DNA from: an uncultured Anaeromyxobacter sp.
GTDB lineage: Bacteria; Myxococcota; Myxococcia; Myxococcales; Anaeromyxobacteraceae
Length of the DNA stretch: 32,172 nt
Assembly: GCA_903855945.1 (NCBI GenBank)
Contig: CAIOAK010000206.1
Coordinates: 1 to 32,172 of the forward strand
Direction: 5' to 3'
Both the position numbers and the translations under genes were made by a program. Within the stretch, counting starts at the first letter, position 1; each line of letters opens with the position of its first letter. Positions 254 through 31,991 of the stretch are shown one piece after another. The notes below the pieces were generated by a model. That model had not been told where the DNA came from. It ran no database searches and was given only the letters and a program-made list of their open reading frames with translations.

Positions 254-373
254 CCGGCGGGCTCTCCTCGGGTGGACCCGGTGCTCAAGACGACACCCAG
301 GTGAAGGTCGTGCGGGCTCACATCTGCCGCTTGCCGCCGCCACCCCCTCGTGTGACGCTCCGGCGTGCACCGC

Positions 374-2359
374 ATGAACGATCCAGGGACCTCGAATCGC
401 AGGGCCAGGCGCGGCGTCGGCGCAGGGCTCGCAGCAGCGGCACTCCTCGTGGCAGGGCTCGCCGGCGTGGCGCGTGGCGCTCCCGGGAGCGCGAAGAACG
501 CTCCTCCCGCCATCGCCGAGTGGACCATCTTCGTCTACGGCCACGGCGACAACGACCTCTCTGCGCAGCTCATCGACGCGATCGAGGAGATGGGTCAGGC
601 CGATCTCGGCACGAACGTGAACGTCCTCGTGGCCGCCGATTACTGCGCCGGGAACGTCTGCCGTGACGCCAGTACCCAGGTGCTCGACCCCGCCCGCGGA
701 AAGCCCATCACCGCCGGGACCCAGTACCTGCGCATCCAGGGCGGCGGGAAGAAGCCGATCCTCGTGGCGGAGGCCCCGGAACAGAACTTCGACGAGCCGG
801 AGGTGCTCCGGGCCTGGGTGGCGCGGACCTTCCGCGACTACCCGGCACGCCGTCACGCGGTCTTCATGAACGGCCACGGAGGATCGTGGGCGGGATTCGG
901 CTGGGACCGTCAGGACGGGACGCTCGACGTCACCCGGGGGCTCGAGATCGAGGAGATGGCCCACGCGATCCGCTCGGGCATGCGGGATGCCGGGCTGCCG
1001 GAGGGCTCCAGGCTCGACCTCCTCGTCTTCGACGCCTGCCTCATGGCGGGGGCCGAGGTCCTCTGGCAGTTCCGCGACCTCGCCCGGGTCATCATCGCGG
1101 ATGCCGAGGTGGACGCGAGCGAGCTCGGCCGCGCCGGGATCCTCACCCTCCTGTCGGCGAGCCCGGACGTCTCCACCTCCCACCACGCCGTGATGGACCT
1201 CCAGTCCTGGGAGGCCACCCACGTGGACACCGACCGGGCGAGCGAGCGACTCCTGCGCGCCCGGGGCGCCTTCGACATGGAGCGGTTCGCCCGCTTCGCC
1301 GGCGACATGAAGGCCCTCGCCGACCTCATGTTGCGCAGCCACACGCTGAGCTGGACCGAGGTCGCGCGAGCCCATGCGCTCACGTCCCCTCCGTACGGAG
1401 CGTGGACCCTCGAGTTCGCCTCCAACTTCCTCGACGCGGGGCAGTTCTTGGGGCTCCTCGCGACGATCCGCAGCGATCCGGAGGTCGCGGCCGCGGCCAC
1501 CAAGGCGCAGCAATCGCTCCGGGACGCAACCATCCGGACCTCGCTCGGGACGCTGCGTGCGGCGGCCGGCCAGTCGGCGCTCCAGATCGCCGGCAACCGG
1601 GGGGAGTCGTGGGACCGGGCGATGCAGTCGCGCTACTCCCAGCTCTCCTGGGACCGGGAGGTGGGATGGGGGCGCGTCCTCTCCGCCCTCGACGCGGCGG
1701 GCGAGGACGACCCGCCCGCGTTCCAGGCCAAGGTCTCCTCCCCGAAGCCCGGCACCACGCGCATCGAGGTGACGCCGACCTCGGAAGGGGTCGTGGACGT
1801 GATCGCCTTCGTGGCCCGTCGCGACCCGGACGGGAATGCATACCGCCTGGGCGGCATCTGGAACGAGCAGATCGCTCCGGGAAAGACCACGAGCTACGCC
1901 TGGGACGGCAAGGTCCCGGTCCTCGTCGGCAAGGACGGCAAGGGAGTCCCCGTGAGCGCCGAGCCGCTCTTCCTCGTCCCGGGGCAATCCGCTCCGCTGC
2001 AGGGCCTGCCTGCGTACCTCAAGGACCGGAAGGGGAAGTACCTCACGAACGACGACGGGAAGCCCCAGGAGATCCGGGCGTTCTTCGATTCGTCCGGAAG
2101 CCTCCAGAGCATCCTGGTCTTCACCGACGAGCGCTCCGCCGCCTGGGACCCGGAGGCCTTCGCGGACGCCTGGTCGCTCGTCCCCGTCCTCCAGTCGGTG
2201 GATGGACGCGCGGTGAAACCGGGCAAGCCGGTCCCGCTCCCGGCCTCCTCCATGCCGCGGCTGCGGATGCAGCCGGTGACGGGCGACCTCGTCATCGAGG
2301 TGATCGTGCGCGACGTCTGGGGGCACGCCTCGGAGAAGACGTTCCCCGCTAGAATGTGA
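374..2359 (+). CDS. Secreted clostripain-family (C11) cysteine peptidase
   Basis: The product has 661 residues if it starts at the ATG at 374; a GTG at 365 is also in frame, and neither has a clear ribosome-binding site. Residues 1-38 look like a signal peptide with an Arg-rich n-region, a hydrophobic Ala/Leu core and an ARGAPGS end. The catalytic half follows the C11 pattern: the opening strand EWTIFVYGHGDNDL, the His motif MNGHGGSWAG (His168) and the Cys motif DACLMAGAEV (Cys222). In this family the His and Cys form the catalytic dyad, and cleavage usually follows Arg or Lys. The C-terminal 300 or so residues are beta-rich and I cannot assign them. The last 11 bp overlap the convergent transporter gene at 2349. 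The protein probably acts in the periplasm or outside the cell. Confidence 0.85.
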   Translation: MNDPGTSNRRARRGVGAGLAAAALLVAGLAGVARGAPGSAKNAPPAIAEWTIFVYGHGDNDLSAQLIDAIEEMGQADLGTNVNVLVAADYCAGNVCRDASTQVLDPARGKPITAGTQYLRIQGGGKKPILVAEAPEQNFDEPEVLRAWVARTFRDYPARRHAVFMNGHGGSWAGFGWDRQDGTLDVTRGLEIEEMAHAIRSGMRDAGLPEGSRLDLLVFDACLMAGAEVLWQFRDLARVIIADAEVDASELGRAGILTLLSASPDVSTSHHAVMDLQSWEATHVDTDRASERLLRARGAFDMERFARFAGDMKALADLMLRSHTLSWTEVARAHALTSPPYGAWTLEFASNFLDAGQFLGLLATIRSDPEVAAAATKAQQSLRDATIRTSLGTLRAAAGQSALQIAGNRGESWDRAMQSRYSQLSWDREVGWGRVLSALDAAGEDDPPAFQAKVSSPKPGTTRIEVTPTSEGVVDVIAFVARRDPDGNAYRLGGIWNEQIAPGKTTSYAWDGKVPVLVGKDGKGVPVSAEPLFLVPGQSAPLQGLPAYLKDRKGKYLTNDDGKPQEIRAFFDSSGSLQSILVFTDERSAAWDPEAFADAWSLVPVLQSVDGRAVKPGKPVPLPASSMPRLRMQPVTGDLVIEVIVRDVWGHASEKTFPARM

Positions 2360-10145: not shown

Positions 10146-12023
10146 CTACTGGACGGTCGCCGTCACCCCGGTGATCGGCTGGAGGTAGGAGATGGTCCCG
10201 ATGGCGTCCAGGGCCTTGCCGGTGATGGTCTTCCCGACGAGGGCCGGCACGCTCCGTCCGCCCGCCTTCACGGCCTCCACGACGTCCGCGTAGTTGTAGC
10301 GGGGGTTGTAGGCCCGGAGCATGGTCACGACCCCGGCCACGTGCGGCGAGGCCATGGAGGTCCCGTCGATGGTGTTGTAGCTCGTGTTGTTCAACGCGAG
10401 CGTCTGCACGCGGACCTTGCCGACGGCGATCCCCTTGGCGGTGGGGCCGTCGGCGGACGTGAGCTGGAATCCGATGGTGCAGGCCGGGCTCGAGATGCAC
10501 CGTTTCACATCGAAGCTCGCGCTCCAGGAGTCCTCGAGGTTGGACTCGGGCCACTCCCAGTAGGTCCGCTCGATCAAGGGGGTTCTGCCATCGAACGGGT
10601 CACTTGCGGTCTCCCCCGCGGCGTAGGCGGCCCGGAAGAAGCCGGCGTACGGTACCTCTCCGGCGATGACGTACTTCAGCAACGCTGCGTCCGCCGGCCC
10701 GATCGGGAGCCCGCTCCACGCATGGTCGTCCGTTTTCTCGCGGTACGTGCCGGTCGGGAAGGTCGATGGGTCCGCCAGGATCTGGAGCGGCCCCTTGGCG
10801 GTTGTGGCGGTCGTGGAGCTCCAGCCCCCGGAGGTCGTCGTCGAGGTGGACCAGTCGGGCGTGAGCGGGTTCGGGATCGGGTAGTCAACGTCGGCATTCG
10901 TCCCTGGCCAGGTGCTCACGACGTTCGTGCCCGGAGCGCCGATCATGACCTTCGTGACGCCCCAGTTGGAGAAGCCAGCGAGGGCGTACTTCTGGTCGAG
11001 GGCGGCCACGCAGACGAGGTTCGGCTGTGTGAAGTTGCATGGATAGGCGTTCGTGCCCGCGGCGTCGTTGTTCTTCCGGTCGTTTCCCGCGCAGACCACG
11101 ATGACGACGTCGGCATCCCGGGCCCGCGTCACCGCTTCGCTGTAAGCCTGATCAAAGGGGTTGTATCCGATGATGCTCATGTTGATGACCTTGGCACCCT
11201 GGGCGACCGCGAAGTTGATGCCGGAGATTAAGCTGGCCGTGTTGCCATGGTTGGTCGCGTCGAGCACGCGGACGGCCATGATGGAGGCCTTCCAGCAGAC
11301 GCCGGTCACGCCCAGGTTGTTGTTGCCCACCGCGCCGATGGTGCCTGCGACGTGGGTGCCGTGCCCATGCAGATCCATGGGATCGTCGGTGTGGTCCACG
11401 AAGTTGTAGCCGTGCTTCGGGAACGCGGTGCTGCTCCACATGTTCGCGGCAAGGTCCTGGTGGTCGTAGTTCACGCCGCTGTCCACCACCGCCACGACCA
11501 CGCTGCTGCAGTCGGTGATGGCGTTCCAGGCCAGCTCGGCGTTGATGTCGCTGCCCGCCGTGCCCGGGTTCGAGCCGGGATAGTTGACGTCGTAGGAGAG
11601 CGGCGACCCCGGCGGCTGGGTGAAGGCGTTCGTGATGGTCTGTCCGCGGTTCTTCATGCCCCAGAGCTGTCCATAGATGGAGTCGTTCGGCACCTTCTGC
11701 CCGCTGTAGATGTAGTTGGGCTGTGCGTACTCGACGGCGGGATCGTCCTGGTACGCTGCGACGGCGGCTTCCACCGACTGGCCCGCGCTCACGCGGACGA
11801 CGGCGAAATTGCGGACGTCCAGGTCCTGGATGAGGGCATGGCCGCGCCGCGCGAGGATGGCGCCACGTGACGTGGCGGTAGCTTCGGCCTTGAACTTCAC
11901 CAGCACCTGTCCGGGTACAAAGGCCGCCTGCCCGTCGTCGGTCCCCGGGGAACTGGCAGCCGAGGCCGGGGCGGAGAAGAGGGAGAGGGAGAGGAGGAGC
12001 GATGCGAAGGTTCGGATCGTCAT
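10146..12023 (-). CDS. Secreted subtilisin-like serine peptidase (S8)
   Basis: The product has 625 residues. Its ATG at 12023 follows GGAGA, and the signal peptide ends SAPASAA. Residues of about 35-110 look like an I9-type propeptide (FVPGQVLVKFKAEA to VEYAQPNYIY). The catalytic Asp is in VVDSGVNYDH (Asp181), the His in HGHGTHVAG (His221), the oxyanion Asn in CAGND (Asn314) and the Ser in DGTSMASPHVAG (Ser556). The gap between Asn314 and Ser556 is much longer than in subtilisin. It contains an insert of about 150-170 residues (roughly PDWSTSTT to ALNNTSYN), probably an embedded beta-sandwich. The gene follows the FN3/Ig-like lipoprotein gene by 16 bp, so the two form an operon. Confidence 0.93.
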   Translation of the reverse strand: MTIRTFASLLLSLSLFSAPASAASSPGTDDGQAAFVPGQVLVKFKAEATATSRGAILARRGHALIQDLDVRNFAVVRVSAGQSVEAAVAAYQDDPAVEYAQPNYIYSGQKVPNDSIYGQLWGMKNRGQTITNAFTQPPGSPLSYDVNYPGSNPGTAGSDINAELAWNAITDCSSVVVAVVDSGVNYDHQDLAANMWSSTAFPKHGYNFVDHTDDPMDLHGHGTHVAGTIGAVGNNNLGVTGVCWKASIMAVRVLDATNHGNTASLISGINFAVAQGAKVINMSIIGYNPFDQAYSEAVTRARDADVVIVVCAGNDRKNNDAAGTNAYPCNFTQPNLVCVAALDQKYALAGFSNWGVTKVMIGAPGTNVVSTWPGTNADVDYPIPNPLTPDWSTSTTTSGGWSSTTATTAKGPLQILADPSTFPTGTYREKTDDHAWSGLPIGPADAALLKYVIAGEVPYAGFFRAAYAAGETASDPFDGRTPLIERTYWEWPESNLEDSWSASFDVKRCISSPACTIGFQLTSADGPTAKGIAVGKVRVQTLALNNTSYNTIDGTSMASPHVAGVVTMLRAYNPRYNYADVVEAVKAGGRSVPALVGKTITGKALDAIGTISYLQPITGVTATVQ

Positions 12024-12039
12024 GGTCGTGTCTCCTCGT

Positions 12040-13239
12040 TCACGGGACGGTGACGCTGATGGCCTGGCTCGGGGTGCTGAATGTGCCCGAGGTTCCACCT
12101 TGGATGTCGAGTGCTGCGTAGGACGACACCGTGACCGTATAGGTGCCGGCAGGGAGAGGGACGGTCGTAGACGTGGGGGCTGCGGAGCCGGACACGAATG
12201 GAACGTCCACCGACGGGCTGCCGGCGATGTTCACCCGATAGCCGCCTCCCGGCTTGTTGACGCCGCTCTCCTTGCTCCCGTTCCAGGAGATGAGGACGTT
12301 CTTCGAACCGCTGGCGACCGTGACGACGAGCCCCACCTCGGCGAAGCCCGAGCCGTTCGTCGCCCGGACTGTGTACGTCGCCGACGTCGCAGGCGCGGTG
12401 GGCGTTCCGGAGATGACCCCGGACGCAGTGTTCAGGCTCAAGCCAGCGGGCAGCGAAGGCGAGACCGAATACGATGCCACCACTCCACCGCTGCTCGAGG
12501 GAATGTTCGGGGAGATGGCGACGCCGACGGTGTAGATGGCAGGGTTGGTCGAGTAGGCGAGCGAAGTCGGCGCCCCGATCGGTGTCACGACGCTGGACGA
12601 TGCGCTCGCGGGGCCGTTGCCCACTGCGTTCGTGGCGAGAACCTGGAACGAGTAGGCCGTGCCGTTCGTGAGGCCCGTCCCCGTAGCCGTGGTGCCCGTC
12701 ACGGTGAACACCGCCGATGGGGCGACCGGAGAGACGGTGACCGAGTACCCCGTGATCGCACTCCCGCCGTTCGAGGAGGGAGCCGTCCAGGATAGGGTGG
12801 CGGAAGCATTTCCGGCGATCGCCGTGACGCCCGTGGGGGCGCCGGGCACGTCGGGTGTCGTGACGGGCGTGGAGGGCAAGGACGCGGGTCCGGTGCCTGC
12901 CGCGTTCGTGGCCGTGACGGCAAAGGTGTAGGCCGTGGAGTTGGCGAGGCCGCTCACCGTCGCGCTGGTTCCCGTGACGGTCACCACGGCAGAAGGTGAC
13001 GCGGGGGCGATGACCACCGTGTAGCCGGTGAGATTGCTGCCGCCGTTCGAGGCCGGAGCCGTCCAGGACACGGCCGCGCCGCGGACACCCGCAACGGCGA
13101 CGACGCTCGTCGGCGCGCCAGGGGCGGTCGCACCACCACCGGCATCACCTCCGCAGGCCGACAATGCGATGGCTGCGAGGAGACCGAGCGAAATGATCAT
13201 CGGAGCGGCGATGGTGCTACCCCGGGGCGAGCTCTTCAT
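12040..13239 (-). CDS. Lipoprotein with two fibronectin-III-like domains and a He_PIG Ig-like domain
   Basis: The product has 399 residues. The ATG follows a strong GGAGGAGG site, and the lipobox is IALSAC. Two FN3-like repeats follow (about residues 40-130 and 131-222), each with SWTAPxSNGGSxxTGYxV and GLxNxTAYxFxVxATNAxGxGPAS. Next is a He_PIG module (about 224-312) closely related to the four repeats of the Kelch lipoprotein at 5652. The last 85 residues form a small beta-rich domain (NVLISWNGSKESGV to the end). It lies 16 bp upstream of the subtilisin-like peptidase gene. It could display, bind or chaperone that enzyme, but this is inference. No catalytic residues are visible. Confidence 0.83.
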   Translation of the reverse strand: MKSSPRGSTIAAPMIISLGLLAAIALSACGGDAGGGATAPGAPTSVVAVAGVRGAAVSWTAPASNGGSNLTGYTVVIAPASPSAVVTVTGTSATVSGLANSTAYTFAVTATNAAGTGPASLPSTPVTTPDVPGAPTGVTAIAGNASATLSWTAPSSNGGSAITGYSVTVSPVAPSAVFTVTGTTATGTGLTNGTAYSFQVLATNAVGNGPASASSSVVTPIGAPTSLAYSTNPAIYTVGVAISPNIPSSSGGVVASYSVSPSLPAGLSLNTASGVISGTPTAPATSATYTVRATNGSGFAEVGLVVTVASGSKNVLISWNGSKESGVNKPGGGYRVNIAGSPSVDVPFVSGSAAPTSTTVPLPAGTYTVTVSSYAALDIQGGTSGTFSTPSQAISVTVP

Positions 13240-20810: not shown

Positions 20811-21458
20811 ATGAGGAAGATCGGTCTCGTGGTCGCAGCGGTGGCGGGGATCGCGTTTGCGGGCGCCGCACGGGCGCAGGTCACGCTGGACCTGAAGGTC
20901 GGCTATGCGATCCCGACCGGGAACGGGGGCGCGGCCGCACCGATGTCCGACACCTGGGGTGGCGCCATCCCCCTCGGGATCGACGCCCTCTATCGCTTCA
21001 CGTCGAACCTGTCGGCCGGGGTCTTCTTTCAGTGGAATCCGGCCTTCGCCGCGTCCGGGTTCTGCGCACGCGAGTTCGGAGCCACGGCCACCTGCTCGGG
21101 GTCGGACATGCGCGTCGGCATCCTGGTCGCCTACGCCTTCCTGCCTCAGGGGTCGTTCAACCCCTGGGTGAGCCTGGGCACGGGCTGGGAGTGGACCAAC
21201 ATGTCGGCCAAGCTTCCCGGAGGGACCGCCGGCGCCACCTTCAGCGGCTGGGAGTACCTCAACCTCCAGGCGGGCGTGGACTTCCCGCTCGCCAGGATCT
21301 TCGCCATCGGCCCCTACATCGGCTACTCGGGCGGGACCTTCACGTCGATGACGGGCACCGGCAACAACAGCGGCATGGGCACGGTGACCATCGAATCGGC
21401 GAATCGCGCCTTCCACGGCTGGCTGCAGTTCGGCGTCAAGGGAACCCTGAACCTGTAG
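20811..21458 (+). CDS. Outer-membrane beta-barrel protein
   Basis: The product has 215 residues. The start MRKIGLVVAAVAG gives a typical signal peptide cleaved after GAARA. The frame is open further upstream, but that extension has no signal sequence. The mature part alternates aromatic and polar residues in eight or so strands (VTLDLKVGYAIPTG, GIDALYRFTSNLSAGVFFQ, VGILVAYAFL, FNPWVSLGTGWEW, FAIGPYIGYSGG) and ends with LQFGVKGTLNL, which looks like a final barrel strand. This is the usual architecture of small OmpA/OMP_b-brl proteins. The single Cys pair (FCAREFGATATC) could form a loop disulfide. The gene lies alone on the plus strand, divergent from the lipoprotein operon. Confidence 0.8.
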   Translation: MRKIGLVVAAVAGIAFAGAARAQVTLDLKVGYAIPTGNGGAAAPMSDTWGGAIPLGIDALYRFTSNLSAGVFFQWNPAFAASGFCAREFGATATCSGSDMRVGILVAYAFLPQGSFNPWVSLGTGWEWTNMSAKLPGGTAGATFSGWEYLNLQAGVDFPLARIFAIGPYIGYSGGTFTSMTGTGNNSGMGTVTIESANRAFHGWLQFGVKGTLNL

Positions 21459-21676
21459 GGATCCGGCGGCGCATCCACGCTTCACCGTCGGTGACCTGCG
21501 CAGCCAGACGGCGTCTCTCCGTATGGACACGCCGCTCGCGTTCCGGGTTGCGTTCAAGCGACCACACCAGCCATGCTCACCGTGGAGACGCTCCACGTGA
21601 AGTTCGTCAGGCCCACGACGGCCATCGGGGGTGTACGGTGAACTCATCCTGTTCGGGGGAGAAGACCGAGGGTGGC

Positions 21677-23407
21677 ATGACATCGCAGCGACGACTCCCG
21701 GCCGCGGCCCGCCTCATCTCCCTGGCGCTCGCGGCGGCTGCCTGCAGCAGCCAGTCGAGCACGCCGACGAACAGCGTCTCCTACAACGCCATCCTCGCCA
21801 CCGACGACCGGGAGACGACCGTCCAGCTTGTCAAGCTGACGGCCGACGGTGCCGGGACGGTGGAGGGGGAGATCCTGGGCGAGGTCGGGCTGGGATACGG
21901 GGAGATGCCCTTCCTCCTGGGCCAGGGAAAGGTGCCCGGCTCGGGGACCGTCGCGCCACCCGAGTGCCTGGTGAGCCAGTCGATGGGCCCCGGCATGATC
22001 GATGCCTGCGTGACCTCTCCCGCGCTGACGTGGATCGACTGGATCGCGGGGCAGTACGCCATCCCCCAGGACGAGGTCGTGATCACGGCGTCGTACGACA
22101 CCAGCTCGTCGGAGAGCTACCAGACCCCGCTGGTGGACGCGGCGGCGACGGCGACGGACGTGTTCGCCGAGGGGCTCGGCTACACGTCCAGCATCATCCC
22201 CGAGGAGCCCGAGCCGGAGATCCCCGAAGCGGCAGGCGCGAGTTCGGACTTCTACAACCACGACAGGAACGTCAGGAACCGCCCGGAGCGCGCCGAGACC
22301 TGGATTTCCGAGCTCAGGGAATCGGCGAGGCTGAGCCAGCTCTCCATCCCGGGCACCCACGACAGCGCCGCCTGGAAGCACGACACGCTGGGCGGCCCCG
22401 TCACGCAGACCCAGTCCATGGACATCCCGACGCAGCTGAAGGCAGGGGTCCGGTTCCTGGACATTCGCCTGAAGTGCCTCGTGATCAGCGGGCGCCACCA
22501 GCTGAAAGCCTTCCACGGCCTCTCGCCCCAGGAAATCTCCTTCGACGAGATCATCGGGGAGCTCAGGGACTTCCTGGCGACGCACCGGCGCGAGGTCGTC
22601 TACGTCCGGATCAAGAACGAGTCGGGTGGCTCCGAGAAGGACCAGTACTGCTTGAGAAAGGGCATGCCGCCCGACAACGAGACGTTCCGCAACGTCTTCA
22701 AGAGCTACTTCATCAACAACGGCGACGTGTTCTGGACCCCGCCGGGGAAGGCCTCGGGCGGGATTGGGGACCCGACCCTGGGCGAGACGCGCGGCAGGGT
22801 CGTGATCATCAAGGACTTCGTGGACAAGGTCGAGGACGTGAACTTCGGCCTCGTGTGGGCCTGGGGCATGGAGATCCAGGACGAGTTCCACGTGAACGCC
22901 GAGTGGGAGATCTACTCGAAGTGGAACAAGATCAGGCAACAGCTGGAACGGGCGCGGAGCGTCATGGGCCAGGAAACGCACCCGATCTTCATCAACTTCC
23001 TGAGCGCGTCGGGCGACCTGGTGCCCCTGGTCCACCCGTGGTTCGTCGCCAGCGGCCAGCGGTCGCCCAACAACGGCGACGGCCGGCGCACCACCTCGAT
23101 CGCGGGCTGCAAGGGGGAGGAGCCCGAGGCGAAGACCATGAAGGACTTCCCGCGCCGATGCGAGCTGAAGATCCCCAAGTTCAAGAAGTGCGGCAAGTAC
23201 AACAAGAACTGGTGCGAGATCGACTACATGGGCATGAACGAGCTGGCGGCGCTCTGGTTCCGCGAAGAGAACTACACCGACTTCTCGGGCATCGTCGTGG
23301 CCGACTTCATCGGCGGCGATCTCATCTATCGCGTCATCGACATCAACCGGCACAAGCTCCTCGACACCGCGCCGGCTTCCGGACCCGCCATGGAGGACAA
23401 ACGATGA
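21677..23407 (+). CDS. Lipoprotein with phosphatidylinositol-specific phospholipase C-like X domain
   Basis: The product has 576 residues, starts at the ATG at 21677 after GAGGGTGG, and has a lipobox LAAAAC. Residues of about 25-200 form a variable N-terminal region with an acidic Pro/Glu linker. The PI-PLC X-like domain begins near residue 215. It has LSIPGTHDSAAW (His228, general base in the family), GVRFLDIRL, KAFHGLS (His280, general acid), VVYVRIKNE and VVIIKDF. Both catalytic His residues are therefore present. In the family this fold cleaves phosphoinositides, and bacterial members release inositol phosphates or cleave GPI anchors. A Cys-containing Lys-rich insert (FKKCGKYNKNWCEIDY) lies near the C-terminus. 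The stop overlaps the start of a small ORF by 4 bp. Confidence 0.85.
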   Translation: MTSQRRLPAAARLISLALAAAACSSQSSTPTNSVSYNAILATDDRETTVQLVKLTADGAGTVEGEILGEVGLGYGEMPFLLGQGKVPGSGTVAPPECLVSQSMGPGMIDACVTSPALTWIDWIAGQYAIPQDEVVITASYDTSSSESYQTPLVDAAATATDVFAEGLGYTSSIIPEEPEPEIPEAAGASSDFYNHDRNVRNRPERAETWISELRESARLSQLSIPGTHDSAAWKHDTLGGPVTQTQSMDIPTQLKAGVRFLDIRLKCLVISGRHQLKAFHGLSPQEISFDEIIGELRDFLATHRREVVYVRIKNESGGSEKDQYCLRKGMPPDNETFRNVFKSYFINNGDVFWTPPGKASGGIGDPTLGETRGRVVIIKDFVDKVEDVNFGLVWAWGMEIQDEFHVNAEWEIYSKWNKIRQQLERARSVMGQETHPIFINFLSASGDLVPLVHPWFVASGQRSPNNGDGRRTTSIAGCKGEEPEAKTMKDFPRRCELKIPKFKKCGKYNKNWCEIDYMGMNELAALWFREENYTDFSGIVVADFIGGDLIYRVIDINRHKLLDTAPASGPAMEDKR

Positions 23408-24101: not shown

Positions 24102-25637
24102 TCACGCCCGCGCCGCGGCCCCCTGGGCCAGGTCGCCCCCCACCGCGCGCTTCATGATCGCCTCCTCGCTGGCGTCGGCGCGCGACAGCTCGCCCACGAT
24201 GGTCCCCTCGCGCATGACCAGGATGCGATCGCTCATGCCCAGCACCTCGGGCAGCTCCGACGAGATCATGATGATGCCCACGCCCCGCTTCGTGAGCTCG
24301 TTCATGATCTGGTAGATCTCGGACTTGCTCCCCACGTCGATGCCGCGGGTCGGCTCGTCCATGATCAGGATCCGGGTGTCGATGGCGAGCCAGCGCGAGA
24401 TGATCACCTTCTGCTGGTTGCCGCCGCTCATGTTCAGGACGATGGAGCTGGCCCCCGGCGTCTTGATCCGGAGGTCCTGGATCAACTTCTGAACCAGGGC
24501 CTTCTCCTTGGCCCGCTGGATGAAGCCGGCCCTGCACAGCCCCTTGAGGGCCGCGATGGTGGTGTTGACGGTGACGTCCAGCTTCAGGAAGAGCCCGTGG
24601 GCCTTGCGGTCCTCGTTGACCAGCGCGATGCCCCGCCGGATGGCCTCCGTCGGGGAGCTGGCCCGGTAGGGCTTGCCCGAGATCCTCATCTCGCCGCCGT
24701 GGGCATCCGCGCCGAAGATGGCACGGACCACCTCGGTGCGCCCGGAGCCCGTGATCCCGGCGAACCCGAGGATCTCGCCGGCGCGGAGCTGGAAGCTCAC
24801 GTCGTGGACCAGGCGGGCGCGGCGGAGGTTCTTCACCTCGAGGAGCACCTCGCCGGGCACCACCTCCCGCCTGGGGAAGACGTCCTCGAGGCCGCGACCG
24901 ATTATCAGGCGGACCAGCTCGTCCATGGTCACGTCGGCGACGCGCCGCGTCCCGACGAAACGCCCGTCCTTGAGCACCGTGACCTCGTCGGCCAGCTCGA
25001 AGATCTCGCGCATGCGGTGGGAGATGTAGATGATGCCGATGCCCTCGGCCTGCAGCGAGCGGACCACCTGGTGGAGGCGCTCCAGGTCGCTCTCGCCCAG
25101 CACCGCCGAGGGCTCGTCCATGATGAGGATGCGGGTCTTGCGGTTGAGCGACTTGGAGATCTCCACCAGCTGCTGCTCGGCCACGGACAGGGTCGAGACG
25201 ATGGCGTTGACGCGGATGGTCGCGCCGAGCCGGTCGAGGATCTCCCTCGACTTCTTCCTGACCGTCTCCCAGTCCACCAGCAGGCCCTTGGCCGGTAGGC
25301 GTCCGAGGAAGATGTTCTCGGCGACGGTGAGATCCTTGGCGAGGTTGGGCTCCTGGTAGATGGTGGAGATGCCCAGATCCTGCGCGTCCTGCGGGCTGCG
25401 GATGGTGACGGGCTGGCCCTCGAAGAAGATCTCGCCCTCGTCCTTGGTGTAGGCCCCGGACAGGATCTTGATGAGGGTGGACTTCCCGGCGCCGTTCTCG
25501 CCCAGGAGCGCCAGGACCTCGCCCTCGCGGACGGACAGGCTCACGCCCTGCAGCGCCTTGACGCCGGGGAACGACTTGCCGATGTCCTTCATCTCCAGGA
25601 GGACCTTGCCCTGGGGCGTGGCGGTGGTCGCGGTCAT
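24102..25637 (-). CDS. Sugar ABC transporter ATPase, double-domain (RbsA-like)
   Basis: The product has 511 residues, close to the usual 500 of RbsA/MglA-type ATPases. The start is the ATG at 25637 after GGAGG; an upstream frame to 25682 overlaps the permease gene. The first domain has Walker A GENGAGKST (about residues 46-54), the signature LSVAEQQLVEISKSL and Walker B RILIMDEPSA. The second has the degenerate Walker A GITGSGRTE typical of this subfamily, the signature MSGGNQQKVIISRWL and RILIMDEPTRGIDVG. It powers uptake through the permease encoded just upstream. The stop of the permease gene lies 16 bp before this start, so this is the last gene of a three-gene operon. Confidence 0.95.
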   Translation of the reverse strand: MTATTATPQGKVLLEMKDIGKSFPGVKALQGVSLSVREGEVLALLGENGAGKSTLIKILSGAYTKDEGEIFFEGQPVTIRSPQDAQDLGISTIYQEPNLAKDLTVAENIFLGRLPAKGLLVDWETVRKKSREILDRLGATIRVNAIVSTLSVAEQQLVEISKSLNRKTRILIMDEPSAVLGESDLERLHQVVRSLQAEGIGIIYISHRMREIFELADEVTVLKDGRFVGTRRVADVTMDELVRLIIGRGLEDVFPRREVVPGEVLLEVKNLRRARLVHDVSFQLRAGEILGFAGITGSGRTEVVRAIFGADAHGGEMRISGKPYRASSPTEAIRRGIALVNEDRKAHGLFLKLDVTVNTTIAALKGLCRAGFIQRAKEKALVQKLIQDLRIKTPGASSIVLNMSGGNQQKVIISRWLAIDTRILIMDEPTRGIDVGSKSEIYQIMNELTKRGVGIIMISSELPEVLGMSDRILVMREGTIVGELSRADASEEAIMKRAVGGDLAQGAAARA

Positions 25638-25653
25638 GCGGGCCTCCGGCACG

Positions 25654-26640
25654 CTACTTGGCCCGGTGAGAGAGGTAGTCAACCGACACCGCCAGGATCA
25701 CCAGGATGCCGGTGATGAGGACCTGGTAGATGGAGCCGACGCCCATGAGCTGGAGCCCGTTGCGGAAGACGCCCACGATGAGGGCGCCCACCAGCGCGCC
25801 CATGATCTGGCCACGCCCGCCCAGGAGGCTCGTCCCGCCCAGCACGACCGCGGTGATGCTATCCAGGTTGCCGGTCTGGCCCGCCTGCGGGTCGCCGACG
25901 CCGGTGCGCGCCACCAGCAGCAGGCCGGCGATGCCGTAGCTGAGCGCGGCCATCGCATAGACGCCCACCAGGACGCGGCTGGTGCGGATGCCGGCGAGGC
26001 GCGCGGCCTCCGGGTTGTCGCCCACGGCGTAGACGGAGCGCCCGGCCCGCGTCGAGCCCAGCACCAGCCAGGCGATGGCGAACAGCACCAGCATGAGGAT
26101 CGAGCCGTAGGTGATCTCGGTGCTCCCGATGGAGAAGGTGTTGCCGAAGAAGAGCAGCGAGTCCGGGACGCTGGTGATGGTGGCGGTGGTGTAGATGCGG
26201 ACCAGGGCGTAGGCGATGTTGAACGTCCCCAGCGTGACGATGAAGGGGGGGAGCCCGATGGCGGTCGTCAGCCAGCCGTTGAGCACGCCGAAGGCCACGC
26301 ACACGGCCAGTCCGAGGACCACGGCGAGGAAGGGGTGCACGCCCGAGTTGGCGATGAGGCCGGTGGTGAGCACCGAGGACAGCGCCATGATCATGCCGTT
26401 GGAGAGGTCGATGCCCCCGGTCAGGATGACCAGCTCCTGGCCGATGGCCAGCGTGCCGACCACCATGACCTGCTGCAGGATCAGCGAGAAGTTGGCGCCG
26501 GACAGGAACCGGTCGGTCTGCGTGGCGAAGAAGATGCACGCCAGGATCAGCGCCGCCACGGGGCCGAGGATGGGCGCTCCCCGCAGGAGGTCGATGACCC
26601 GGGAGTGGCGCGGCGCGGCGGCGGTGGGGGCTGCGGTCAC
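25654..26640 (-). CDS. Sugar ABC transporter permease (RbsC/FrcC-like)
   Basis: The product has 328 residues and a GTG start at 26640 preceded by GGGAGAG. After a short cytoplasmic N-terminus it has eight to ten hydrophobic segments, with the family landmarks LVILTGGIDLSNGMIMAL, GLPPFIVTLGTFNIAYAL, YAVGDNPEAARLAGI (the loop that meets the ATPase) and VVLGGTSLLGGRGQIMG. It should form a homodimeric inner-membrane channel for a monosaccharide. The gene sits 33 bp downstream of the binding-protein gene and 16 bp upstream of the ATPase gene. Confidence 0.95.
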   Translation of the reverse strand: MTAAPTAAAPRHSRVIDLLRGAPILGPVAALILACIFFATQTDRFLSGANFSLILQQVMVVGTLAIGQELVILTGGIDLSNGMIMALSSVLTTGLIANSGVHPFLAVVLGLAVCVAFGVLNGWLTTAIGLPPFIVTLGTFNIAYALVRIYTTATITSVPDSLLFFGNTFSIGSTEITYGSILMLVLFAIAWLVLGSTRAGRSVYAVGDNPEAARLAGIRTSRVLVGVYAMAALSYGIAGLLLVARTGVGDPQAGQTGNLDSITAVVLGGTSLLGGRGQIMGALVGALIVGVFRNGLQLMGVGSIYQVLITGILVILAVSVDYLSHRAK

Positions 26641-26673
26641 GGAGCTCTCCCGGTCGGACGAGGTGAGGCGAGC

Positions 26674-27675
26674 CTACTTCTTGCCCCAGCAGCTGGCCGT
26701 GCCGAACTTGCTGTCCTTGCTGGCCACGCCCGCCTGGGGCCTGTCGGTGACGAGCGTGACGCCGGTGTCAACGTAGCCGCTGGCCTTCTTGCCGGTCTTG
26801 GCGTAGTTCACCACCGCCTCGACTCCCATGGTCGCCATCTTGAGCGGGTACTGCTGCGAGGTGGCGGCGATCTTGCCATCCACCACGCCCTGCACGCCCC
26901 GGCAGCCGCCGTCCACGCTCACGATGACGATCTGCTTGTCCTTGCCGGCGGCCTTGACGGCCGTGAAGGCGCCGAACGCGGCGGGCTCGTTGATGGTGTA
27001 GACGAGGTTGATGTCGGGGTTCTTGCTGAGGCAGTTCTCCATGGCCGCCTGCCCCTCGGCCTGGTTGCCGTGGGTGTCCTGGCTGCAGACCACCTGGGGC
27101 GCGGTCACCAGGTCGGACGAGTTCGGATCGGCCTTGGCGACGCCGAAGCCCTGCAGGAAGCCGTTGTGGCGCTGGGCCCCGACGGTGATGCCGGGCTGCA
27201 GGTCGAGCGTGGCGATGACCGGCTTCTTGCCGGCCATGGCGCCCTTGGCCCACTGCCCGATGAGCAGGCCGGCGTCGAAGTTGTTGGTCGCGAAGAGCGC
27301 GTCCACGGCGGTGACCGGCTCGGTCGCGGTGTCGAGGGCGATGACCAGCACGCCCTTCTTCCGGGCCTTCTGGATCGAGGGCACGATGGCCTTGGTGTCG
27401 CTCGGCGTGATGAGGATGCCCTTGGCGCCGGCGTTGATCATGTTCTCCATGGCCGTCACCTGGCCCTCGTTGTCGCCGTCCTTGGCGCCGGCGCCGGTGA
27501 GCAGCTTGGCGCCGAGCCTGGTTGACTCGCTGGCGGCGCCCTCCTTCATCTTCACGAAGAACGGGTTGGTCTCGGTCTTGGTGATGAGGCCGATGACGAT
27601 GGGATCCGCGGCGGCGGCCGGGCTGGCCGCCAGGGCGATGAGGGTGACGACGGGCAAGGCGAGCTTCAGGAACAT
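26674..27675 (-). CDS. Sugar ABC transporter substrate-binding protein (FrcB-like)
   Basis: The product has 333 residues. It starts at the ATG at 27675 with the signal peptide MFLKLALPVVTLIALAAS, ending PAAAADP; a GTG at 27708 would add 11 residues before the signal. The mature protein has the periplasmic-binding-protein type 1 fold pattern: VIGLITKTETNPFFVKMKEGA, MINAGAKGILITPSDTKAI, VLVIALDTATEP, NNFDAGLLIGQWA, LVYTINEPAAFGAF and VIVSVDGGCRGVQGV. The TKTETNPFFVKMKEGA opening is closest, in my recollection, to fructose-binding FrcB proteins, but ribose or another pentose/hexose cannot be excluded. It is the first gene of the operon; the promoter should lie in 27676-27852, where I see no clear boxes. 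Confidence 0.93.
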   Translation of the reverse strand: MFLKLALPVVTLIALAASPAAAADPIVIGLITKTETNPFFVKMKEGAASESTRLGAKLLTGAGAKDGDNEGQVTAMENMINAGAKGILITPSDTKAIVPSIQKARKKGVLVIALDTATEPVTAVDALFATNNFDAGLLIGQWAKGAMAGKKPVIATLDLQPGITVGAQRHNGFLQGFGVAKADPNSSDLVTAPQVVCSQDTHGNQAEGQAAMENCLSKNPDINLVYTINEPAAFGAFTAVKAAGKDKQIVIVSVDGGCRGVQGVVDGKIAATSQQYPLKMATMGVEAVVNYAKTGKKASGYVDTGVTLVTDRPQAGVASKDSKFGTASCWGKK

Positions 27676-27852
27676 GGGACGTCCAGGTTGGGGTGAGTCA
27701 CGACGCACGGAGCTGCGGGAACGAACGGGTGGCGCGCCATGCGCGACGGATGAGCGGGCTCGCGATCAGGGCACCTACTCTCCGACGTTCCGGGTCCTGG
27801 GACGGCTGTCCCTGGCCGCTCCTGGACCGGAATGTCGAACCTGGCTCGGGCC

Positions 27853-29052
27853 CTACCGAACCTCAAGCTTTCCGATACGGAAGTCCGCACTCGAGGCGAC
27901 GTCGGTCCCGCCCTTGTCCCGCAGGCCGCCGCTGAATTTCACAGGGAGCGCGCTTCCATCGAACACGACGCCGGCGGTCGCGCCGGGCTTCAGGTCGAGC
28001 CTCAGCGAGTAGAACACCTGGCCCACCGAGATGGTGGCGTCCGTGGCCACCGCGCCGGCGCCCGCCGCCTTCTGGCTGAGGGCGGACACGAGGACGTTGG
28101 CGAGAGGCCCGGTCGCCTTCAGGACCGCGCCCGCCGCTAGCGGAGGCGCCCCGGCGGCGAGTGCTGTCCCCGGGACGAACGACGGCGTCGCGAGCGAGAC
28201 TTTCGAAGCGTCGATCGGCAGGTTGAACCCGGTCGAGTAGCCCTTCATCGCGGCGCCGGCCACGAGGTCGAGCACAAGGGTGGTGGCCGTGGACGCTTCG
28301 TTCCGGACGAGCCGAAGCTTTCCGCCGGCCGCTGGCTCCGTGTAGTAGAGCGCGGGCGAAACGTTCGCGGAGAAGTCGATCGGGGCGAAGGCTCCCGTGG
28401 TCGCCCGGAACACGTTCGTCGGGCCACCCCCGCCGAGAACCCCGGTGGCGCTGGCGGTCCCGTCGGCGGCCGTGGTTGGCGACCCAACGACGATGCTTCC
28501 TCCACCCGTCACGGGGGCCCAGGCGATGGTCACGCCGCCTACGCCGTTTCCGTAGGCATCCGTCACCTGTACGACCAGCGGGTTCGCGAGCGGCACGCCG
28601 ATGGCGCCGGACTGTCCCCCGCCGCTCACGGCGGCGAGCGCCGCCGCCGGGCCGGGACTTCCCGTCGCAGCGAAGTTCACCGGGGAACCGGACAGCCCGT
28701 TCGCGGTGGCCTGGAAGGCGTAAGCTCCGGCCCTCGTTCCGACGGTCGCGGTCGCGGACGCGGTTCCGTCGGAGCCCGTCGTCGTGGTGGCGGGGAGGAT
28801 CGTCCCTCCTCCGGCGCTCGCACTCCACGTCACCGTCACACCGGTAGCCGGATCTCCGGCTGCCGTCGTGACCCGCACGACGAACGGCGTGGTGAGCACA
28901 TGCCCGACCGCCGCGCTCTGGCCGGAGCCGGAGAGGATCGCGATGGCGCTGGGCGAGGCCGGCCCGGACGTGGAACCGCTGCTGCAGGAGATCGCGAGCA
29001 GGGACATCGTAGCGAAAGAGAGGCAGCGGGCCAGCGGACGCGTCCGGCTCAT
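27853..29052 (-). CDS. Lipoprotein with two Ig-like domains and a cohesin-like C-terminal domain
   Basis: The product has 399 residues. The ATG at 29052 overlaps the stop of the upstream gene (ATGA). The lipobox is LLAISC. Two bacterial Ig-like (Big_1-type) domains follow: about residues 33-130 (QSAAVGHVLTTPFVVRV, TVTWSASAGGGTI) and 131-230 (QSGAIGVPLANPLVVQV, TIAWAPVTGGGSI). The last 165 residues run LRLVRNEASTATTLVLDLV, MKGYSTGFNLPIDASKVSL and QVFYSLRLDLKPGATAGVVFD. The order of strands and the G-Y-x-F-x-L-x-(Y/I)-D-x-S-K-V motif resemble cohesin domains. Because the partner gene encodes a dockerin-like tail, a surface anchoring role is attractive. The cohesin call is tentative. Confidence 0.7.
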   Translation of the reverse strand: MSRTRPLARCLSFATMSLLAISCSSGSTSGPASPSAIAILSGSGQSAAVGHVLTTPFVVRVTTAAGDPATGVTVTWSASAGGGTILPATTTTGSDGTASATATVGTRAGAYAFQATANGLSGSPVNFAATGSPGPAAALAAVSGGGQSGAIGVPLANPLVVQVTDAYGNGVGGVTIAWAPVTGGGSIVVGSPTTAADGTASATGVLGGGGPTNVFRATTGAFAPIDFSANVSPALYYTEPAAGGKLRLVRNEASTATTLVLDLVAGAAMKGYSTGFNLPIDASKVSLATPSFVPGTALAAGAPPLAAGAVLKATGPLANVLVSALSQKAAGAGAVATDATISVGQVFYSLRLDLKPGATAGVVFDGSALPVKFSGGLRDKGGTDVASSADFRIGKLEVR

Positions 29053-31991
29053 GGGTGGTCTCCGAACTTGGCCATCAGGGCCGTGAGATCCGTCTCGTCG
29101 ATCACGCTCGTCGGGTAGCTCGAGGTCGAGCTGAGGTCCAGGTTCCAGTTGTAGGTAGGCCAGACGCTGTTGGCCGGCGTCGTTTCTAGACGGGATGCGA
29201 GCGCGGCGATGTCCGCCCAGTCGATCCGTCCGTTCCGGTCGAAGTCGCCGTCGCCCAGGGCTCCCTGCGGCGCGGTCGAGTTCGGGTAGATCTCCCAGAT
29301 GCCCCGTCCGAAGGTGGAGACGCGGATGAGGCTCTGGTTCCGGGAGATGTAGATGTCGTTGACCGCGACCATGGGCAGACCGATGCCGTAGCGTCGCCAG
29401 GTGCTGCCGCCGTCCACGGTCCGGTACATCCCGAGGGCAGTGCCGACGTAGATCGTGTTCGAGGAGGGATCGCCGGGATCGTACCGGACGACGTAGACCG
29501 GGACGTTGGGAAGGTCCCAGCCCGTGCCGTTCCCGTGGAATGGCTCGAAGGTGGAGCCACCGTTCACTGAGCGGAAAAGATGTCCGACCGTGGGCGGGAC
29601 CGGCGTCGCACCGTCCGTGAGCAGCCATGCCTTGCTCGCCGCGAGGAACACCATACCCGGATCGACCCCCGTGGGCGTGACGGGAGGAAAGACGATCGAG
29701 GTCGCCTGAGCAACTACCTGCTTTCCAACACCCAGCATCTCGGACGGATTCCACGTCTTCCCTGCGTCGCTCGTCCAGGCCACCCAGCCACCTGCAGCGA
29801 CTCCGTACAGTCCGACGATGTTCTGCGACGCGTAGACCGTGTAGATGTCTGCGAAATTGTCACTGCTGAAGTAGGTCTTGTAGAGCGGCTTGGCTTCCCA
29901 TGTCGGCTTCGGGTCCTTGGGGTCGTCGATGTAGCCGCTCCGATACACGGCATAGGAGGTGTGGGAGAGGAATTGGGCTCCCGTCGGATCGGTCTGGATG
30001 GGCGAATACCGGATGAAGAAGGGCTGGGTGTCTTCTTCATCGGGGTTTCCTGTGTCGATCAGCGGGGGGTTCGACTTCGTCCAGGAGCCCCCTGCCCAGC
30101 AGTCATCCTTCTCCGGCTTGCAGAACAGGTGTTCGTACTGCTGGGCCACCCAGTAGAACTGGCCCCCCGTTCCGGTGTTCACTGCGGCGCCGATGCCGTC
30201 GCCGCCGAGAACCTGGTTGAAGGTGGAGGGATTGAGCGTCGAGTCGCGATACCGCACGCCGTTGTCCTGGAGGCCCGTGAGCACCACGAACGGGTTACCG
30301 GTCGCCGGATCCCCGGAGCCCACGCTGTAACAGAGGTGGGTGACCATGCCGCGGTTGTGGAAGTTCCAGACAACGTCCGTGGGAACCGTGTTCGCGTTGA
30401 AGAGGTTGGTGGAAGAGAAGACCCCTCCATCGGTCCCGGCGAAGGTCCGCAAGCGTCCGCCGACGCGCGACACCAGGGTGGCCTGGTAGTCGGCGTGCAC
30501 GTACGGAAGGCGCCCGGCGGCGGTATCGCCACCGTAGAAAGGCAACCAGTGGGAGACGTTCTCCCAGGTCGGGTTCCAGTCGGTGCCGTTCAGCGTTCGA
30601 ACGCCGCAAAGGCTACCGCCCGCGATGACCTGGTCGGCGTTCGCGGGATCGACGGCAATGGACAGGTCGAACCAGGACTGGTCGTGACCCAGGTTCATGT
30701 CGGGGCAGTCGTTGCTGGATGTGGATTTGGTCTCCGGGGGTACCGGGTCCTTCTTGACGGGAATCGTCGGATTCACGAGGGTCCCAACCGGCCCCACCCA
30801 GTCGGCGCCGCCATTCGGCGACCGGAAGACCCCCAGCGTGGCCTTCCCATCCAGCGTCGACTTCAACGCGTAGACCACCGTCGTCGCGGGATTCGTGGTC
30901 GGCCCTGCAGCGAGCCGGACGAGCCCCACGTTCGTCTGCTTGATCGGAGCCCACGTCACCCCGGAGTCGGAGCTGGTCCAGAGCTCGCCGGGCGTCCCGT
31001 AGGTGCAGGTCGAGAAATCCATCGGGTTCTTCTTGCCGGCCTGGGCCGATTGCTTCGCCCAGGGAGGCAGCTTCCCGGGATCGCACGCGCAGATGCCGGA
31101 CAGAATCCACCGGCTCCGGGATCCCACCGCTCCGAGGTAGACGATGTCCCACGTCGCCTCGGCCAGTTGCACCGGGCCGGAGTTCGGAAGGTCCACGAGG
31201 GCGAAGCTCGCCCCCGCGTCCGCGGACCGGAAGAGCCCCACGTCGGTGGTTACGAAGACGACGTTCGGATCCTTGGGATCCACCTTCAGATCGCGGGAGG
31301 AGAGCGGCTCCGCGACGAGGCCGCCGGCCGATGCTGGGTAGGAGGCCTTCAGCTTGATGGGAGCGGACCACGTCCCTCCGCCGTCCACGCTCTTCAGGAC
31401 GAAGGTGCCGAACGTGTCGTACGGGTCGCCGGTGGCGAGATAGATCGTGTCTGGGTTGCTCGGGTCGAGCCCCATCGCGCCGACGGCCAGGTTTCCGATG
31501 GTCTCGGTGATGGGTTGCCAGGTGGGATTGGGCGCAGCCGTCTCGAAGTCGAACGTCTTCCAGACGCCGCCCCCGGTCGTCGCCACGTAGACAACGTTCG
31601 GGTCCCGAGGATCCACGAGGATGCGGGTGGCACGGCCGGAGTCCACCTGCAGGTAGTAGCTACTGTTCCACTGGAAGCGGGCGTCGGTCGGCCCCAGGCT
31701 CACCCAGCTCTCCCCGGCGACGGGCGCGGCGGAGACCGGGGCGGATCCCGCGCGGAGCGGGGGAAGCGCCCGGGCCGGGCGCGGGAGGCTGCTCGCCCAG
31801 CGGCTCGCCTCGCCCGTGGCGACGTTCAGGAACCCCTCGACCGCCTGCCGCGGCACCGGCTCGATGCCGCCGCGCACGGCCGGCTTCCGACCGGGACTGA
31901 CCTGCGCGGAGGCGATCCCGCCGTCCGTGACGGCGACGACGGCGAGAAGGAAGAGGAACGCTACGCCTCGTCGTGCACCGAATGTTCCCAT
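29049..31991 (-). CDS. Secreted Asp-box beta-propeller protein with dockerin-like C-terminus
   Basis: The product has 980 residues. It starts at the ATG at 31991 after GGGAGAGACC and has a signal peptide ending GGIASAQ. The body contains many sialidase/sortilin-type Asp-box motifs (SVDGGGTWSAP, SSDSGVTWAP, SPNGGADWVG, TSDAGKTWNPS, TVDGGSTWRRYG) and Val-Tyr-Val-Ala or Tyr-Val-Gly strand repeats, so it should form one or two seven-bladed propellers, as in GH74 xyloglucanases and related non-enzymatic proteins. I cannot identify catalytic acids. Residues of about 910-980 hold two Ca-binding-loop-like repeats: GDGDFDRNGRIDWADIAALA and NLDLSSTSSYPTSVIDETDL followed by TALMAKFGDHP. This is the dockerin type I arrangement, with a longer second loop. 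The stop overlaps the next gene's start. Confidence 0.85.
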   Translation of the reverse strand: MGTFGARRGVAFLFLLAVVAVTDGGIASAQVSPGRKPAVRGGIEPVPRQAVEGFLNVATGEASRWASSLPRPARALPPLRAGSAPVSAAPVAGESWVSLGPTDARFQWNSSYYLQVDSGRATRILVDPRDPNVVYVATTGGGVWKTFDFETAAPNPTWQPITETIGNLAVGAMGLDPSNPDTIYLATGDPYDTFGTFVLKSVDGGGTWSAPIKLKASYPASAGGLVAEPLSSRDLKVDPKDPNVVFVTTDVGLFRSADAGASFALVDLPNSGPVQLAEATWDIVYLGAVGSRSRWILSGICACDPGKLPPWAKQSAQAGKKNPMDFSTCTYGTPGELWTSSDSGVTWAPIKQTNVGLVRLAAGPTTNPATTVVYALKSTLDGKATLGVFRSPNGGADWVGPVGTLVNPTIPVKKDPVPPETKSTSSNDCPDMNLGHDQSWFDLSIAVDPANADQVIAGGSLCGVRTLNGTDWNPTWENVSHWLPFYGGDTAAGRLPYVHADYQATLVSRVGGRLRTFAGTDGGVFSSTNLFNANTVPTDVVWNFHNRGMVTHLCYSVGSGDPATGNPFVVLTGLQDNGVRYRDSTLNPSTFNQVLGGDGIGAAVNTGTGGQFYWVAQQYEHLFCKPEKDDCWAGGSWTKSNPPLIDTGNPDEEDTQPFFIRYSPIQTDPTGAQFLSHTSYAVYRSGYIDDPKDPKPTWEAKPLYKTYFSSDNFADIYTVYASQNIVGLYGVAAGGWVAWTSDAGKTWNPSEMLGVGKQVVAQATSIVFPPVTPTGVDPGMVFLAASKAWLLTDGATPVPPTVGHLFRSVNGGSTFEPFHGNGTGWDLPNVPVYVVRYDPGDPSSNTIYVGTALGMYRTVDGGSTWRRYGIGLPMVAVNDIYISRNQSLIRVSTFGRGIWEIYPNSTAPQGALGDGDFDRNGRIDWADIAALASRLETTPANSVWPTYNWNLDLSSTSSYPTSVIDETDLTALMAKFGDHP

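Follow-up and report, generated by a model that had tools for sequence, protein, structure and literature searches.

A candidate lipid-anchored cohesin and its dockerin-bearing neighbor: a proposed two-gene surface-retention cassette in Myxococcota and Acidobacteriota

Known cohesin-dockerin systems and the present locus

Cohesin and dockerin form a textbook high-affinity pair that is tied to cellulosomes. The locus described here resembles cellulosomal systems, such as Clostridium thermocellum CipA (PDB 1aoh, 1ohz, and 3kcp), in the predicted cohesin fold of one domain (Z-score up to 11.1), in a dockerin-type double loop, and, as proposed here, in cargo that is held through its own dockerin. 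In contrast to those systems with their multi-cohesin scaffoldins, it has a single cohesin on each lipoprotein, a lipid anchor, cargo consisting mostly of peptidases and Asp-box propellers, and a cohesin that is not recognized by the Pfam family PF00963 (Cohesin). The genome carrying the window (the whole analyzed stretch of DNA, 32,172 nucleotides long) contains a single copy of this C-terminal domain (CTD), one profile-level dockerin, and no PF00963 cohesin. The combination that defines a cellulosome, i.e., a multi-cohesin scaffoldin together with cellulolytic dockerin enzymes, is absent from this genome, and the window system is not a cellulosome. Two further PF00404 matches in the genome were rejected, since by inspection they look like non-coding frames.

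The general idea of cohesin-dockerin pairs outside cellulosomes is known already, with non-cellulosomal cohesins and dockerins described in archaea and bacteria (PMC9012536). Similarly to ANME archaea (PMC9012536), the present locus has a cohesin and a dockerin that are unconnected with the breakdown of cellulose, and it lacks a multi-cohesin scaffoldin. The CTD fold also matches the cohesins of Archaeoglobus fulgidus (2xdh) and of Clostridium perfringens GH33 and GH84 proteins (2vo8 and 2w1n), with Z-scores of 8.9–9.8. These non-cellulosomal systems differ from the locus studied here, which shows a fixed adjacent gene pair, a lipoprotein anchor, a conserved ATGA overlap, and repeated exchange of cargo.

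As for syntrophic sulfate-reducing bacteria, passages of PMC10553843 discuss adjacent cohesin and dockerin genes as adhesins; in these Gram-negative bacteria, too, the two domains are neighbors. Those pairs, however, were found through the usual domain annotation, to which the CTD family is invisible, and the passages describe no lipoprotein/peptidase cassette. A search of the open-access literature returned no report of the CTD lipoprotein family or of such pairs in myxobacteria. Thus, the CTD cohesin family, the lipid-anchored one-to-one cassette, and the peptidase and propeller cargo appear to be new.

Domain content of the two genes

According to its open reading frame and translation, gene 1 (29049–31991, minus strand) encodes a secreted Asp-box (BNR/Sortilin-like) propeller protein of 980 aa, the putative cargo, with a Sec-type signal peptide that is seen by eye. 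The body of the protein gives weak, sub-threshold BNR/Sortilin matches in Pfam, and its matches to solved Asp-box folds (6p2k and 3b7f) are all weak; homologues of the propeller at 32–48% are present in CTD loci.

Residues 905–980 of the propeller protein (29052–29279, minus strand) form a dockerin-like tail with two loops. Loop 1 (residues 916–927, 29211–29246, minus strand) has the canonical calcium-type sequence DFDRNGRIDWAD, and loop 2 (residues 952–968, 29088–29138, minus strand) is enlarged by an insertion and reads DLSSTSSYPTSVIDETD. The original prediction of two dockerin-type EF-hand repeats is amended in one point: the second loop is present but enlarged and non-canonical. Among the 52 dockerins found next to a CTD, the calcium pattern of loop 1 is kept in all 52, and loop 2 has the 12-residue canonical form in 10, with mostly longer forms in the others. 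Taken alone, the window tail stays under the cut-off of Pfam Dockerin_1 (PF00404), with an E-value of 0.022 and 15.4 of the required 22.9 bits. A profile built from 29 dockerin-like tails, however, matches the solved cellulosomal dockerin 2y3n_B with an E-value of 1.9e-4 and several further solved dockerins below 0.1, and Dockerin_1 itself matches 17 of these 29 family members (best E-value 1.5e-5). The AlphaFold2 model of the tail places a helix after each loop but is of low confidence (pLDDT 50), and the window tail is thus called dockerin-like by its sequence.

Gene 2 (27853–29052, minus strand) encodes the putative anchor, a lipoprotein of 399 aa, and is joined to gene 1 by a 4-nt ATGA stop/start overlap (29049–29052, minus strand). 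Both open reading frames and their overlap were found exactly as had been predicted, and the same holds for the proposed lipoprotein with two Ig-like spacers. Specifically, the protein has a signal peptide and a lipobox AISC (LLAISC, 28984–28995, minus strand) with Cys23 as the lipidation site, the features by which bacterial lipoproteins are recognized, followed by two Big_1 Ig-like spacer domains (28360–28953, minus strand; two PF02369 stretches, E-value 2.3e-14) and the CTD of 167 aa (27856–28356, minus strand). An automatic rule detects a lipobox in 88 of 108 CTD proteins, and in complete ones the CTD forms the extreme C-terminus, usually of a lipoprotein with a spacer.

Regarding the nature of the CTD, sequence profiles and predicted structure give different answers. 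No Pfam or NCBIfam family covers these last 167 aa of the lipoprotein, and PF00963 is matched neither in the window protein, nor in 22 and 24 members of the CTD family, nor anywhere in the window genome at E ≤ 1. Searches of the CTD sequence against PDB returned noise alone and recovered no PDB cohesin. An hhalign comparison of the CTD with Pfam-recognized Acidobacteriota cohesins gave a plausible register that is not significant (P-value 0.012, probability 3.5%). The CTD is therefore not a Pfam cohesin, and the expectation that PF00963 and Dockerin_1 would call the window domains failed for both at threshold.

The predicted fold, in contrast, points clearly to cohesins. The CTD was modeled with AlphaFold2 from a shallow alignment of 5 rows (the window CTD and four relatives), which gave a pLDDT of 91.4 and a pTM of 0.88. 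VIA-align 2 ranks cohesins in places 1 to 47 of its 50 best PDB entries, with Z-scores from 11.1 down to 7.6; their matches span residues 14–170 of the model, with up to 144 residues aligned. The first non-cohesin match, a GH20 enzyme, has a Z-score of 7.1, and two more cohesins follow at 7.0. The best Foldseek matches in PDB are likewise cohesins (top match 6kgd, probability 1.00), with E-values of about 1e-3. The predicted fold thus bears out the suggestion of a cohesin-like C-terminus, its best Z-score of about 11 lying four units above the first non-cohesin, and the CTD can be assigned as a cohesin by its modeled nine-stranded jelly roll. A fold other than the cohesin jelly roll, the outcome named in advance as refuting the idea, did not occur. 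Since sequence identity to the structurally matched PDB cohesins is 8–19%, this assignment is one of fold. The CTD family reads as a group of cohesins that profile libraries lack, which would make present counts of non-cellulosomal cohesins too low.

Gene pairs in Myxococcota and Acidobacteriota

Profile searches detect the CTD family in 33 of 195 Myxococcota genomes. A search with the CTD alone already recovered relatives in identical gene order, a whole-protein search in named genomes found nothing, and a search with the propeller alignment returned, besides generic propellers, three genuine cassettes in Myxococcota and a single locus in Acidobacteria. Iterated profiles yielded 63 distinct CTD open reading frames, mostly myxobacterial, with four coming from one Acidobacteria genome. 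In 52 of the 63 the adjacent gene ends in a dockerin (E < 1e-9). The other 11 comprise 2 at contig ends, 2 broken fragments, and 7 lying beside M4 proteases, whose dockerin-like tails are weak or degenerate. Conversely, the dockerin profile has 22 matches in 10 genomes, and all 22 adjoin a CTD.

Gene order is conserved as well. Nearly every propeller-class CTD gene neighbors a homologue of the window propeller with the same tail, usually immediately upstream. Among the 30 relatives of the same gene order whose start was called automatically, 29 have the identical 4-nt ATGA overlap. At one locus (L034) the order is reversed, with the genes still adjacent.

With a broader profile, the CTD is found in 40 of 396 Acidobacteriota genomes. 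For 30 of the 45 Acidobacteriota CTD open reading frames examined, the neighboring gene encodes the strict calcium-loop motif within its final 100 aa, compared with a background of 3 out of 429 other open reading frames. Many of the Acidobacteriota partner tails also exceed the Pfam Dockerin_1 cut-off (e.g., E-values of 1.5e-9 and 2.1e-7). The partners in this phylum include propellers, M4, M6, S53, and papain-like peptidases, and Ig/NPCBM proteins. In several Myxococcaceae-like genomes the gene next to the CTD encodes a protein of about 1450 aa; the one at L167 is a thermolysin-like M4 protease that carries Ig domains together with a canonical dockerin. At L077, from an Acidobacteria metagenome-assembled genome, an S53-type pro-kumamolisin protein is followed by a lipoprotein that consists of lipobox and CTD only. 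The cargo is thus swapped (propeller, M4, M6, S53, or papain-like peptidase) while dockerin and CTD remain paired. Adjacency in other genomes, one of the points raised for checking, is therefore conserved in two phyla and with different cargo enzymes; the predicted adjacent pair is real, although it is not a single pair but one of a large family of pairs.

Among the matches listed, no CTD belongs to the other searched genomes of the genus and family group of the window, whereas other families of its order do have the domain; this distribution suggests that it was gained horizontally or lost sporadically. The CTD profile is also unmatched in 49 genomes, largely from other phyla, which is weak evidence of absence there.

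Several irregular loci were also observed. In L158 (3971–10166) and L160, CTD lipoprotein and M4 protease genes alternate in tandem arrays, and the protease tails resemble degenerating dockerins. L065 (G047:C213) and L174 (G047:C94:20545) are broken CTD copies beside which no dockerin was detected. The genome that carries them has intact cassettes as well, and the broken copies may be decaying cassettes or assembly errors.

As for the cohesins that Pfam does recognize, PF00963 exceeds its cut-off in 204 of 392 Acidobacteriota genomes. In L254, a type II/III secretin (Secretin, E-value 2e-35) is followed by a cohesin (Cohesin, E-value 3e-13), and many other Acidobacteriota PF00963 matches are of similar length, about 700–900 aa. 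Carried on a secretin, a cohesin might capture secreted proteins that bear a dockerin right at the gate.

Proposed mechanism, alternatives, and surroundings

Based on these results, the original interpretation is supported overall, and we assign a probability of roughly 0.8 to a two-gene surface-retention cassette in which a lipid-anchored cohesin holds an exported dockerin cargo outside cellulosomes. In such a cassette, the Asp-box propeller with its C-terminal dockerin would be exported, and the product of gene 2 would reside in the outer membrane as a lipoprotein whose Ig-like domains hold the single cohesin-fold domain off the membrane. The dockerin would then bind the CTD, probably with calcium in its loops, and the exported cargo, rather than being lost by diffusion, would stay attached to the cell or to vesicles derived from it. 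The ATGA overlap may provide roughly matched amounts of both products. Judging from their genomic pairing, CTD and dockerin likely act as a working cohesin-dockerin pair. We infer their binding, its calcium dependence, surface exposure, and cargo activity, and the pairing of the two domains strongly so.

The lipoprotein could also face the periplasm. The CTD would then bind the dockerin only transiently and, acting as a docking site or chaperone, pass the cargo on to a secretion machine of the outer membrane. Acidobacteriota secretins with a canonical C-terminal cohesin, such as L254, show that cohesins can be part of secretion gates, and we regard this alternative as unlikely yet the most serious of those considered. 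Spacer length varies widely among relatives, and because mature CTD proteins range from 155 to 2068 aa, a CTD at the tip of stalks of such different length favors display over a fixed periplasmic role. Stalks of Ig-like repeats in proteins of up to the latter length fit the periplasm poorly and resemble surface stalks. In addition, a general secretion helper would be expected to be shared, whereas here each cargo has its own neighboring partner.

It is considerably less probable that the two domains have separate ligands, with the tail being a sorting or stability element read elsewhere, the CTD binding something else, and the genes traveling together because they serve one pathway. This explanation agrees with the non-canonical loop 2 of most propeller dockerins and with a partial-Mantel test on 33 propeller cassettes, in which CTD and dockerin distances are uncorrelated beyond propeller distances (partial r = −0.03), i.e., show no coupling beyond shared inheritance. 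Since CTD, dockerin, and propeller descend together, however, the lack of excess co-divergence neither supports nor excludes contact. Against separate ligands, cohesins and dockerins are known partners, dockerin and CTD recur together in two phyla, the cargo being of five or more kinds, and all 22 matches of the dockerin profile in 10 genomes lie beside a CTD. Finally, a chance resemblance of an EF-hand-like tail and an unrelated beta-sandwich, although in line with the sub-threshold scores of single-sequence profile searches, is hardly credible given the confident CTD model, for which cohesins score far above other folds, and is refuted by adjacency conserved in dozens of loci versus the low background frequency of the loop motif.

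Beyond the window, the retention cassette may be one case of a wider scheme, in which a separate cohesin superfamily invisible to profile libraries is a general means of cell retention for peptidases and propellers, with private, mutually exclusive pairs in each genome. This reading covers many myxobacteria and some Acidobacteriota, with each cargo gene having its own lipid-anchored socket, and we give it even odds. If true, the one-to-one lipid-anchored form would widen the role of cohesin and dockerin in both groups, explain how peptidases and propellers remain on the cell, and offer many natural private pairs to protein engineering. Some genomes contain two to four CTD-dockerin pairs, which makes cross-binding, and hence specificity, directly testable.

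Regarding the surroundings of the cassette, a promoter scan of the window was empty, and terminators in it are at chance level. Three other genes of the window possibly encode secreted hydrolases: a clostripain family C11 protein (365–2359, plus strand), an S8 subtilase with a fervidolysin-type prodomain (10146–12098, minus strand), and a protein with a PI-PLC X domain (21032–23407, plus strand). Directly downstream of the cassette and on the same strand lies a sugar-type ABC transporter operon (24102–27708, minus strand), which encodes a periplasmic binding protein, a permease, and a double ATPase.
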